NCBI GenBank assembly: GCA_947503765.1
Contig: CANNFA010000004.1
Location: 1-64,000, forward strand
Origin: an uncultured Paracoccaceae bacterium
GTDB lineage: Bacteria; Pseudomonadota; Alphaproteobacteria; Rhodobacterales; Rhodobacteraceae
Length of the DNA: 64,000 nucleotides
Direction of reading: 5' to 3'
This document shows positions 12,190 through 15,273 of this stretch, one piece after another. Position numbers and translations under genes: made by a program. Position 1 is the first letter of the stretch; each line of letters starts with the position of its first letter. Under the pieces are notes generated by a model. It saw only the letters and a program-made list of their open reading frames with translations. It searched no databases and was not told the DNA's origin.

Positions 12190-14679
12190 TCACCCGCACT
12201 TGGAATAGCCGCAGCTCATGCAGGTCATGCAGCCTTCGACCATGCGCATCTCGAAGGCGCCGCAGGACGTGCAGGACTTGCCGCGTGGCTGGTTCAGGCT
12301 GACCACATCCGCCTGCGGGTCGGCCTTCAGCCCCAGCCCTTCGCCCTCGATGAAGCCGATGGCGACGAGGTGACGTTCGATCACGCCGCCGATCGCGGCC
12401 AGGATCGAGGGGATGTACTTGCCCTGCATCCAGGCGCCGCCGCGCGGGTCGAACACGGCCTTCAACTCCTCGACCACGAAGGACACGTCGCCGCCGCGTC
12501 GGAACACGGCAGAGATCATCCGGGTCAGCGCCACCGTCCAGGCAAAATGCTCCATGTTCTTGGAATTGATGAAAATTTCGAAGGGCCGGCGATGGCCGTT
12601 CAGGATGATATCGTTGATCGTGACATAGATCGCATGTTCGCTGCCGGGCCATTTCAGCTTGTAGGTCTGCCCTTCAAGCTGCTGCGGCCGGTCAAGCGGT
12701 TCGCTGATATAGACCACGTCGCCATGCGGTGTCTGCGGTTCGGCGCCGGTCAGGGAGACGACTTCGGGTGTCTCGCGTTCTATGAGTGCTGAAGTCGCGA
12801 CGCCGAGTGCATCTGCGATCTTCTCAATGGTCGAAACCTTTGGCGAAGCACTCTTACCACTGAGAATATCGTACACGCCGGTCGCATTCAGTCCGGCAAT
12901 TTCGGCCAGCTTCTTTGCGTTCAGGTCATTGGCTTCCATCAACGATTTGAGCTTCTCAGGCAATGAGGCGTCGACTGGAATCTCCGCCGTCACACTCAAA
13001 ACCGACCCCGTCACCTCGTTCGGTCGATACGTCGTGCAGCCCTTGCACCCGGACTCATAGGCTTCGAGATAGACGTTCTTGAACGCGTCGAAGGAGATGT
13101 CCTCGGGGCAGTTGATCGTCTTGGAAATCGACGAATCCACCCATTCCTGCGCCGCCGCCTGCATCTTCACATGCTCCAGCGGGGCAAGCGTCTGCGCATT
13201 CACGAAATACTCGGGCAGTTCCGCATCGCCGAAGCGTTCGCGCCACATCTGCACGGCGTAATCGACCACTTCCTCCTCGGTCCGGCTGCCATCCTTCTGC
13301 AGCACCTTGCGGGTGTAGGAATAGGCAAAGACCGGCTCGATCCCGCTGGACACGTTCCCGGCATAGAGGCTGATCGTTCCCGTCGGCGCGATCGAGGTCA
13401 GCAGGGCGTTGCGGATGCCATGCGCGCGGATCGCGTCCCGTACATCCTCGCCCATATGGGTCAGCGACCCGCTGGCCAGGAACTTCTCGGCATCGAACAG
13501 CGGGAAGGCGCCCTTCTCGGCCGCCAGACGCGCCGACGCCAGATAGGCGGCGCGGGCGATCCGGCGCAGCCATTGGCCGGTCAGACGCGCCGCCTCGTCA
13601 GAGCCGTAGCGCGCCCCGACCATCAGCAGCGCATCGGCCAGCCCGGTCACGCCCAGCCCGATCCGCCGCTTGGCGCGCGCCTCTTCCGCCTGCTGCTCCA
13701 GCGGGAAGCGCGACGCGTCGACCACGTTGTCCATCATCCGCACCGCGGTCGCCACCAGATCGTCCAGCGCCGCCTCGTCCAGCGCCGCGCCCTCCCCGAA
13801 CGGATCCGTCACCAGCCGCGCCAGGTTGACCGACCCCAGAAGACAGGCCCCATAGGGCGGCAGGGGCTGCTCGCCGCAGGGATTGGTGGCCGCGATCGTC
13901 TCGCAATAGGCAAGGTTGTTCATCTGGTTGATCCGGTCGATGAAGATCACCCCCGGCTCGGCGTAATCGTAGGTCGCGCGCATGATCCGGTTCCACAGAT
14001 CGCGCGCCTCGACCGTGCGGTAGACCTTGCCGCCGAATGTCAGCTCCCACGAGGCATCGGCCTTCACCGCCTCCATGAAGGCATCGGTGACCAGGACCGA
14101 GACGTTGAAATTGCGCAGCCGCGCGGCGTCGGCCTTGGCGGTGATGAAATCCTCGATATCCGGGTGATCGCAGCGCATCGTGGCCATCATCGCGCCGCGC
14201 CGCGAGCCGGCCGACATGATGGTGCGGCACATCGCGTCCCAGACATCCATGAAGGACAGCGGCCCCGAGGCATCGGCCGCCACCCCCTTCACATCCGCGC
14301 CCCGCGGCCGGATGGTCGAGAAATCGTACCCGATCCCGCCGCCCTGCTGCATGGTCAGTGCGGCCTCCTTCAGCGCGTCGAAGATGCCACCCATCGTGTC
14401 AGGGACCGTGCCCATGACGAAACAGTTGAACAGCGTGACCGACCGTGCCGTGCCCGCCCCCGCGGTGATCCGCCCGGCGGGCAGGAACCGGAAATCCTCC
14501 AGCGCGGCATAGAACCGGTCCTCCCACAGATCGGGCTCCACCTCGACCGCCGCCACGGCACGCGCGATCCGGCGCCAGGTATCCTCGACCGTCTGGTCGA
14601 CGGGCGTGCCATCCGCCTGTTTCAGGCGATACTTCATGTCCCAGATCTGTTCGGCGATCGGGGCGGCAAATCGGGTCAT
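12190..14679 (-). CDS. nrdJ: Cobalamin-dependent ribonucleotide reductase NrdJ with an inserted HTH domain
   Basis: 829 residues from the ATG opening MTRFAAPIAEQIW. It reduces ribonucleotides to deoxyribonucleotides using adenosylcobalamin. Class II features seen are LFNCFVMG near the N-terminus, NPCGEQPLPPYGACLLGSVN, the loop GNVSSGIEPVFAYSYTRK, and the cysteine-rich C-terminus SCTSCGAF...GCMTCMSCGY. Between the catalytic part (ending near NEVTGSVLSV) and the C-terminal domain (starting near DVVYISEPLD) there is an XRE-type helix-turn-helix at about residues 570-633: LPEKLKSLMEANDLNAKKLA, then GLNATGVYDILSGKS and VSTIEKIADALGVATSALIE. Its DNA is about 52% GC over 12781-12960, while a line of the core (13381-13440) is 73%. 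The frame is unbroken, so it should be made as one fusion protein. Divergent from the DUF1489 gene. Confidence 0.95.
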   Translation of the reverse strand: MTRFAAPIAEQIWDMKYRLKQADGTPVDQTVEDTWRRIARAVAAVEVEPDLWEDRFYAALEDFRFLPAGRITAGAGTARSVTLFNCFVMGTVPDTMGGIFDALKEAALTMQQGGGIGYDFSTIRPRGADVKGVAADASGPLSFMDVWDAMCRTIMSAGSRRGAMMATMRCDHPDIEDFITAKADAARLRNFNVSVLVTDAFMEAVKADASWELTFGGKVYRTVEARDLWNRIMRATYDYAEPGVIFIDRINQMNNLAYCETIAATNPCGEQPLPPYGACLLGSVNLARLVTDPFGEGAALDEAALDDLVATAVRMMDNVVDASRFPLEQQAEEARAKRRIGLGVTGLADALLMVGARYGSDEAARLTGQWLRRIARAAYLASARLAAEKGAFPLFDAEKFLASGSLTHMGEDVRDAIRAHGIRNALLTSIAPTGTISLYAGNVSSGIEPVFAYSYTRKVLQKDGSRTEEEVVDYAVQMWRERFGDAELPEYFVNAQTLAPLEHVKMQAAAQEWVDSSISKTINCPEDISFDAFKNVYLEAYESGCKGCTTYRPNEVTGSVLSVTAEIPVDASLPEKLKSLMEANDLNAKKLAEIAGLNATGVYDILSGKSASPKVSTIEKIADALGVATSALIERETPEVVSLTGAEPQTPHGDVVYISEPLDRPQQLEGQTYKLKWPGSEHAIYVTINDIILNGHRRPFEIFINSKNMEHFAWTVALTRMISAVFRRGGDVSFVVEELKAVFDPRGGAWMQGKYIPSILAAIGGVIERHLVAIGFIEGEGLGLKADPQADVVSLNQPRGKSCTSCGAFEMRMVEGCMTCMSCGYSKCG
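12775..12975 (-). other. XRE-type HTH insert within nrdJ
   Basis: This stretch encodes a complete Cro/CI-like HTH. The second and third helices are KKLAEIAGLNATGVYDILSG, followed by PKVSTIEKIADALGV. It replaces or extends the variable linker between the NrdJ core and its C-terminal domain. The lower GC, 93 of 180 bases over 12781-12960, marks it as compositionally foreign. No direct repeats or inteins are seen at its edges. Confidence 0.85.
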
Positions 14680-14821
14680 CGGCACGTTTCCATTCTCTGC
14701 GGGCAGGCTATGTTTCCTAAAGATGCACCCGCCTGCCGTCAAAGCCAATCCGCCCCGCCCGCACGGATTCGCACGCGCCCGTGGCAGGCCTGTGGCAGAA
14801 TCGGTCGAAGGGGTCTACACT

Positions 14822-14835
14822 ACCACATATAGGGG
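14822..14835. promoter_or_regulatory. Possible NrdR-like box
   Basis: ACCACATATAGGGG in the divergent nrdJ/DUF1489 gap has the AT-rich ATAT core of NrdR sites but matches the flanking arms poorly, and I find only one copy. Promoter function is likely for the 171-bp gap as a whole. The regulator assignment is weak. Confidence 0.25.
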
Positions 14836-14850
14836 GAACGTACAAAGAAC

Positions 14851-15273
14851 ATGCTGCATCTCGTCAAACTCTCCGTGGGAACCGAAAGCGTCGAAAGCCT
14901 GGAACACTGGCAGTCAAGCGCGCGGGCGCAGGGCGCCGACGGTCTGCCGCGCCATGTAACCCGGATGTGGCCGCGCCGCGAGGCCGAGGTGCTGGACGGC
15001 GGCAGCATCTACTGGGTGATCAAGGGCATGATCCTGTGCCGCCAGCGCATCCGGCGCCTCGACGAGGTCACGCGCGAGGATGGCATCCGCCGCTGCGCCA
15101 TCGTGCTCGATCCGGCGCTGGTGCGCGTTGCCGCCACGCCGAAACGGCCGTTCCAGGGCTGGCGCTATCTCGACCCCGCGCAGGCCCCTGCCGATCTCTC
15201 GCAGACCCGCCAGTCCGAGGACGCCCTGCCCCCCGCCCTCAGTGCCGCGCTGGCCGAGATCGGGATCCTCTGA
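14851..15273 (+). CDS. DUF1489 family protein
   Basis: 140 residues starting MLHLVKLSVGTESVESLEHW, with RMWPRREAEVLDGGSIYWVI and IRRCAIVLDPALVRV in the middle. This is the alphaproteobacterial DUF1489 family, which has no known function. Soluble, no signal peptide. It is transcribed away from nrdJ and runs toward hisG, with a copy of the dispersed repeat between the two 3' ends. Confidence 0.9.
   Translation: MLHLVKLSVGTESVESLEHWQSSARAQGADGLPRHVTRMWPRREAEVLDGGSIYWVIKGMILCRQRIRRLDEVTREDGIRRCAIVLDPALVRVAATPKRPFQGWRYLDPAQAPADLSQTRQSEDALPPALSAALAEIGIL

Follow-up and report, generated by a model that had tools for sequence, protein, structure and literature searches.

We analyse a metabolic enzyme that carries a DNA-binding domain within its own chain: the product of nrdJ in an uncultured Paracoccaceae bacterium of the family Rhodobacteraceae. 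The DNA under study (assembly GCA_947503765.1, contig CANNFA010000004.1, positions 1 to 64,000 of the forward strand) is referred to as the window, meaning the whole stretch of 64,000 nucleotides. On its minus strand, nrdJ encodes a class II ribonucleotide reductase (RNR), and an XRE (Cro/CI-type) helix-turn-helix (HTH) domain is set in frame into the linker that joins the catalytic barrel to the C-terminal domain. Comparison with relatives indicates that an HTH at this site recurs across one bacterial family and is exchangeable, a fact beyond the view of an earlier reading of the window made from its letters alone (the sequence-only reading). The linker is almost certainly a hot spot, at which close relatives carry XRE domains that are present, absent or unrelated while the flanking enzyme is conserved.

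The nrdJ frame runs uninterrupted from an ATG at 14679 to a stop at 12190 and encodes 829 amino acids. Its product scores 594.5 bits with the NCBIfam NrdJ_Z profile (TIGR02504), above the curated cut-off of 399.95 that assigns it to class II. Across 52 aligned NrdJ sequences, N266, C268 and E270 of the motif NPCGE, C86 and C279, and the C-terminal C803, C806, C817, C820, C823 and C828 are invariant; from E. coli NrdA, we take the first three to be active-site residues and C86 and C279 to have redox roles. A Pfam scan of the whole protein places HTH_26 (residues 576-636) and HTH_3 (577-629) between the barrel and the TSCPD domain, and an isolated segment of 83 amino acids matches both above their gathering cut-offs (1.9e-9 and 1.3e-8, respectively). 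The same scan returned no intein or Hint domain in the insert and no ATP-cone domain. The recognition helix is presumably NATGVYDILSGKS, placed by analogy with the 434 repressor.

These results uphold a complete Cro/CI-type HTH between barrel and C-terminal domain, which the sequence-only reading had proposed with coordinates accurate to a few bases. Its further claim of an intact frame in an otherwise normal-looking reductase is borne out by the Pfam and NCBIfam domains and the invariant catalytic residues: the sequence evidence indicates that NrdJ is a standard class II reductase that has a single additional domain. An HMM search against HTH_3, a survey of NrdJ homologues in Rhodobacteraceae and a structure prediction were among the checks it proposed; the HTH_3 match exceeds the gathering cut-off, the HTH recurs at the same linker in many genomes, and it is modelled as a confident separate fold between low-confidence linkers.

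Table 1. Features of nrdJ and its surroundings in the window (residue numbers refer to NrdJ).
Feature	Positions	Strand	Basis
nrdJ, adenosylcobalamin-dependent (class II) ribonucleoside-diphosphate reductase	12190..14679	minus	single open frame and TIGR02504
RNR all-alpha N-terminal domain, residues 8-79	14443..14658	minus	PF00317, 3.5e-13
RNR catalytic barrel, residues 85-551	13027..14427	minus	PF02867, 6.4e-128
Linker preceding the HTH, residues 547-569, predicted disordered	12973..13041	minus	pLDDT <50
XRE (Cro/CI-type) HTH, residues 570-636	12772..12972	minus	Pfam HTH_26 and HTH_3
Linker following the HTH, residues 637-655, predicted disordered	12715..12771	minus	pLDDT <50 over 634-655
TSCPD domain, residues 679-771	12367..12645	minus	PF12637, 3.5e-11
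Cysteine-rich (zinc-finger-type) C-terminus, residues 800-829	12193..12282	minus	invariant cysteines
nrdJ upstream region	14680..14900	minus	scanned for operator-like and promoter motifs

An AlphaFold2 model built on the alignment of 52 NrdJ sequences shows the HTH with confidence: the ten-residue means of the predicted local distance difference test (pLDDT) are 76-94 across residues 571-630, with helices at 573-583, 588-595, 601-606 and 615-625, and fall below 50 in the linkers on both sides. The HTH would fold as a unit of its own, with disordered tethers on either side. The whole-protein model is mediocre (mean pLDDT 65, with parts of the barrel below 50), so that the placement of the HTH on the enzyme is not readable from it. 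The closest solved HTHs by sequence are the N-terminal domain of CapH (7t5u, E = 4.8e-7), the nearest of all, and a prophage Lp1 protein (3b7h). With a single-sequence model of the HTH, Foldseek returned nothing at E <= 0.001; its top matches (0.011 and weaker) include C.BclI, CapH, SinR and HipB. CapH is a separate repressor of a CBASS system, unlike the enzyme-embedded HTH of NrdJ.

The domain is widespread in the family. We searched 394 genomes of the family (Rhodobacteraceae by their record names), about one per genus, of which 357 have this NrdJ. The query aligns in one piece, or nearly, across the linker in 42 of them, and all 42 linkers, when read, proved to have an HTH-like domain in the same position; HTH_3 matches 39 of these HTHs, and the PHROG family of phage transcriptional regulators phrog_8 matches 38 (both at E <= 0.01). 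HTH searches added three genomes missed by the one-piece criterion (G349, G233 and G122). The linkers read number 100 of 357 (the 42, these three and 55 without an HTH) and 257 are unread, so at least 45 of the 357 genomes carry an HTH at this linker. A search of a genome collection returned 80 loci, of which 13 carry the HTH; for two others, L257 and L271, the length of the match alone shows that no HTH would fit. Named bearers include Rhodosalinus halophilus E84, Sulfitobacter sp. HI0040, Sedimentitalea xiamensis, Mameliella sp. MMSF_3455 and Primorskyibacter flagellatus.

Counting the 45 of the family sample, two genomes of one further genus (G634 and G638) and eight other loci (L221, L224, L225, L227 and L229-L232), HTH-bearing linkers were read in 55 genomes; apart from duplicates, they are mutually different. 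Every long insert read at the family linker contains an HTH (55 of 55 genomes), most of them confirmed by Pfam, and 12 of the 14 HTHs in the 13 genomes outside the 42 match HTH_3 at E <= 0.01. The linker of G122 (L416) holds two HTHs in tandem, type-B-like and then type-F-like, the first with weak Pfam matches only and the second with none at 0.01.

Outside the family, the class-level comparison matched 95 of 240 genomes; in the 56 that show both NrdJ halves among the matches listed, there is no HTH-sized insert, because the gap between the NrdJ pieces is at most about 125 nucleotides. In NrdJ from viral contigs, no XRE HTH is visible by eye in the 77 readable linkers of 80 loci (L305 and L377 were not extracted, and L317 was in the wrong frame). 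A phage origin of the HTH-bearing nrdJ itself was set aside on these 77 linkers, together with a search of phage records limited to the best 40 of 167. Other extra sequence sits in the same linker of viral NrdJ L302, L306, L313, L328, L333 and L338; these six are among the longest viral linker inserts, and none has a Pfam match.

The 42 HTHs of the family sample form 8 clusters (22, 8, 7 and five singletons; BLAST single linkage, E < 1e-8), and types A-F are a finer grouping by eye. Distances between HTHs and between NrdJ cores give a Mantel rho of 0.10 (p 0.07, 41 genomes). Core distance is 0.172 within a type and 0.168 between types (permutation p 0.84; 30 typed genomes, with 11 untyped HTHs left out). 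The total is 41 rather than 42 here, and in the promoter and base-composition counts, because the partial gene L132 (G322) was left out. Judged by these distances, the HTHs do not follow the NrdJ phylogeny. On a core tree built free of the linker, HTH presence and absence takes 27 changes, at least 10 of them forced by the starred branches.

In two genera, unrelated HTHs occupy one and the same place. Five species of the window's own genus comprise one with type A (our own, G000), one with type B (G002) and three with none (G001, G003 and G004, found in a genus search outside the 394). In the three HTH-free species, the barrel and C-terminal matches lie no more than 12 nucleotides apart, and the site holds 7-8 residues against 74-76 in the HTH-bearers. 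Our own and the G002 HTH DNA are 46-52% identical in two inner windows; the flanks are 76-94% identical, and the window at the 3' edge 62%. We considered whether more than the HTH had been transferred into our own gene and rejected this: the flanking 90-nucleotide windows match congeners at 0.73-0.94, which limits the difference to the HTH and its edges. Nor are the 5' flanks of HTH-bearers much more alike than others; the last 30-nucleotide window before the HTH gives 0.753 within the HTH-bearing group, 0.742 within the HTH-free group and 0.726 between the two. A further RNR match (27% identity) occurs in the three HTH-free congeners and in neither of the two HTH-bearers (n = 5).

A second genus, that of Sulfitobacter sp. 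HI0040, repeats the pattern. The match table for 62 genomes searched has the HTH in 2 of 60 NrdJ-bearing genomes, and 20 loci were read, 2 with an HTH and 18 without. The pair belongs to different types, and its HTH DNA is 36-50% identical; the next 100 bases or so are 78-88% identical and are missing in the HTH-free relatives read. This module behind the HTHs is a dispersed palindromic repeat; 7 of the 8 genomes searched have it, our own included. The repeat is about 67 bp long with inverted arms of 17 bp (L478, L479, L437; in our own genome at G000:C3:168459-168525), and in G638, G634 and G233 one copy follows the HTH in frame within the nrdJ linker.

Base composition also sets the domain apart. 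The HTH DNA in the window has a guanine-plus-cytosine (GC) content of 52.7%, and of 59.7% at third codon positions (GC3), against 64.3% and 84.1% for the whole of nrdJ. The contrast noted by the sequence-only reading is real, although its size was overstated: the 73% line taken for comparison is a GC-rich spot. The four 90-nucleotide windows directly before the HTH have 56-62% GC in our own gene (57-70% in the congener G003, which lacks the HTH), and 2.5% of in-frame 201-nucleotide nrdJ windows are equally low, the HTH's own windows counted. Across the family, mean HTH GC3 is 0.615 against 0.839 for the rest of nrdJ, and in 35 of 41 genomes the HTH has the lower GC. By this measure, the HTH looks foreign.

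The embedded HTHs belong to the same HTH family as the CI/Cro-type (XRE) repressors of phages (phrog_8, phrog_4; HTH_3, HTH_26). In a family-wide search with our own HTH, the top three matches are embedded (59, 54 and 47% identity), followed by a mixture of standalone and embedded relatives at 44% or less. A type-B query finds three embedded HTHs closest (63, 60 and 59%), after which standalone (G054, 49%) and embedded ones alternate; for a type-C query, the closest eight are all embedded (67-44%). Records of three phages and one plasmid match our own HTH at 39-41%, and 24 of the 42 embedded HTHs, used as queries, reach six phage records at 39-45%. On these matches, the embedded HTHs look like captures from phage-type repressors, at least some of them old, that then spread and were exchanged within nrdJ. 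No DNA relatives of the viral locus L385 were found among named phages.

The likeness extends to recognition helices for some members of types A and B. The type-A-like viral repressor at L381 carries the helix NPTAVYDILKGKS, similar to our own, and four of the type-B-like standalone repressors at L383-L387 and L415 were read and carry SRD(V/I)INKL, next to SRDVLNKL in NrdJ of G051 and G035. The recognition helix is conserved in standalone type-B-like repressors (0.608 against 0.498 for the rest). In type A it scores 0.607 against 0.437, yet the segment ranks only 9th of 49. Unlike the phage repressors, the NrdJ HTH sits inside an enzyme, and no S24 or other repressor C-terminal domain was found with it.

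Standalone repressors also point to candidate operators. Upstream of the L381 repressor lie ATTAGGAAGTTTCCTAAT, AGGATTCTTCCTAT and TAGGATATTCCCTAG, all resembling TTAGGAAnnTTCCTAA, which is a candidate operator for type A, the type of our own HTH. For type B, the candidate is GTGCC-N4-GGCAC: allowing one mismatch, it occurs 3-6 times within 2.2-4.2 kb in each of five viral type-B-like repressor loci (L383-L387) and at L415 in the family genome G092, over a background in nrdJ loci of about 0.04-0.24 per kb. The palindrome arrays at these six loci surround small XRE repressors, and each array is likely an immunity region with a clear operator. Candidate probe sequences are TTAGGAAGTTTCCTAA for type A and GTGCCAATTGGCAC for type B (G051 and G035).

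The nrdJ promoters themselves lack these motifs. The type-A motif, inferred from few standalone relatives, is absent from all 8 type-A promoters at up to 3 mismatches, and GTGCC-N4-GGCAC is absent at up to 1 mismatch from all 7 type-B promoters and from 99 promoters overall. Exact copies of two other elements, which we take to be DnaA and NrdR-like sites, occur in promoters with and without the HTH (loci L092-L191). Of the 41 promoters of HTH-bearing genes, 18 have TTATCCACA and 17 have ATATnGTAG; of the 58 belonging to HTH-free genes, 19 and 23 do, respectively. Our own upstream region has neither element in exact form and no type-A operator-like site. A search for a palindrome shared within any of the groups A-F (C and E being wider here than in the core-distance test) found none in half of a group, with exact 5-bp halves; imperfect palindromes would escape it. 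Genome-wide, TTAGGAAnnTTCCTAA at up to 1 mismatch is absent from 16 genomes, 8 of them of type A. This absence would tell against a strong host site and, the motif being rare, not for its avoidance.

We tentatively propose that the RNR serves as a scaffold for interchangeable phage-repressor domains. The linker between barrel and C-terminal domain of a short class II RNR would be the docking point for an exchangeable XRE domain, and the HTH would bring the probably dimeric NrdJ onto operators like those of temperate phages or mobile elements, which it would then repress. The outcome would be a host-encoded repressor mounted on a metabolic enzyme that confers an immunity akin to superinfection immunity. 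Changing phage operators would favour domain swapping by recombination, and HTH diversity would be explained by such swaps, with loss and stacking as further products of an arms race. Because the diversity sits in the DNA-reading module, it suggests changing targets, as with phages; that the embedded HTH is directed at phage or mobile-element operators is a real possibility, although short of probable. To an RNR specialist, a DNA-binding domain that is present, absent, replaced or stacked at one point of a conserved enzyme of nucleotide synthesis would be unexpected, and for type B some standalone phage relatives supply a concrete candidate operator, GTGCC-N4-GGCAC.

A number of observations weigh against this scaffold proposal. 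Resolution of the core tree is low (47 of 97 branches are open), HTH presence is slightly clustered on it (18 of 500 shuffles are equally low), and the apparent shuffling could be inflated by recombination of nrdJ itself. None of the phage repressors sampled comes close to identity with an embedded HTH; standalone relatives on viral contigs are 31-52% identical. The recognition helix of embedded type-B HTHs is not specially conserved compared with the rest (0.431 against 0.465, rank 29 of 50); of the seven type-B members among the 42, five have at least two substitutions relative to the phage helix, and shared operators are therefore plausible for some type-B members only. The type-A motif was derived from a single viral locus, L381; L042 resembles it more loosely, and the closer family repressors L036-L038 form no part of its basis. 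Of the 15 standalone type-B-like loci scanned, six have several copies of GTGCC-N4-GGCAC at up to 1 mismatch and the other nine have 0 or 1; at 2 mismatches, similar sites occur in 20 of 99 nrdJ promoters and in 1 of 7 of type B, with no enrichment. That GC-rich genomes lack a rare motif of 14 bases carries little weight by itself. Finally, the Pfam scan of the whole NrdJ found no S24 (LexA-like) or other repressor dimerisation domain.

Other explanations deserve consideration. The linker may accept domains at large, with XRE domains arriving on phage DNA, doing little once in place and spreading by homologous recombination. Such a tolerated insertion, already offered by the sequence-only reading, keeps part of its standing, and we consider it rather unlikely. 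It accords with the other extra sequence at the same linker in some viral NrdJ, six of which lack a Pfam match, with the splitting of an Aeromonas enzyme into two chains at this linker, with type-B recognition helices that are not specially conserved, and with a patchy distribution (2 of 60 in one genus). Chance explains poorly why all 55 long family inserts contain an HTH although phages fit other sequence there; moreover, HTHs of the same type are recognisable across genera, mostly at 40-67% identity to their nearest kin, and G122 carries two in tandem. Were the domain inert, the site would still be a permissive one that in this lineage took up essentially one domain family. Alternatively, the reductase could sense the state of the deoxynucleotide (dNTP) pool and repress host promoters other than that of nrdJ. 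RNR binds nucleotide effectors, and the trigger enzymes PutA, BirA and NadR likewise combine an enzyme and a DNA-binding domain in one chain and double as regulators. Their DNA-binding domain is fixed, whereas that of NrdJ differs between close relatives; each replacement by an unrelated HTH would rewire the targets, and many relatives do without the domain (the 55 HTH-free linkers of the family sample). We regard such a host regulator as unlikely.

The sequence-only reading had suggested two further roles, and both have lost ground. A dimeric HTH protein could bind its own promoter; the promoter elements are shared by genes with and without the HTH, no type group showed a palindrome of its own in the search with exact 5-bp halves, and the inferred A and B operators are missing from the 8 and 7 matching promoters, which leaves autoregulation quite improbable. 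The idea that the domain tethers dNTP synthesis to DNA or a replicon has nothing in its favour save the presence of the domain. An HTH of a sequence-specific type that is often replaced would make a poor general tether, many relatives lack it, and the unrelated HTHs of close relatives would go unexplained; we hold this role to be highly improbable. A frameshift or chimeric contig, by which the whole observation would be an artefact, can practically be dismissed, because the frame is intact and the same architecture recurs in dozens of other, independent assemblies.

Known systems provide partial parallels. The dimeric class II NrdJ of Thermotoga maritima (TIGR02504; PDB 1xje) shares the barrel, the active-site residues, the TSCPD domain and the cysteine-rich C-terminus; unlike it, the NrdJ of the window has an XRE HTH in the linker. 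The main text of a survey of RNR insertions (PMC9669993) describes C-terminal IscU-like and zinc-finger domains, the former perhaps corresponding to the TSCPD domain, and reports that long C-termini occur on dimeric enzymes, two minor subclades excepted; the NrdJ of the window is probably dimeric. That main text makes no mention of helix-turn-helix, HTH or DNA-binding. Among the literature matches listed, in which subscription journals are thinly covered, titles and abstract openings name no HTH in NrdJ. Split class II RNRs (NrdJa/NrdJb), described for Pseudomonas (PMC4520616), also change at this linker. In Aeromonas caviae (L506), the NrdJ chain is broken into two at this linker; it differs from the NrdJ of the window in having two chains and no HTH seen. 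A swappable DNA-recognition module within conserved flanks is also a feature of the type I restriction subunit HsdS, which is a defence protein, whereas the host protein here is a metabolic enzyme. Insertions may affect other parts of the gene as well: in L137 (G350), L138 (G224) and L251 (Pseudaestuariivita rosea), which have no linker HTH, the NrdJ frames are about 370 amino acids longer, and our guess is an intein-like insertion elsewhere in the gene.

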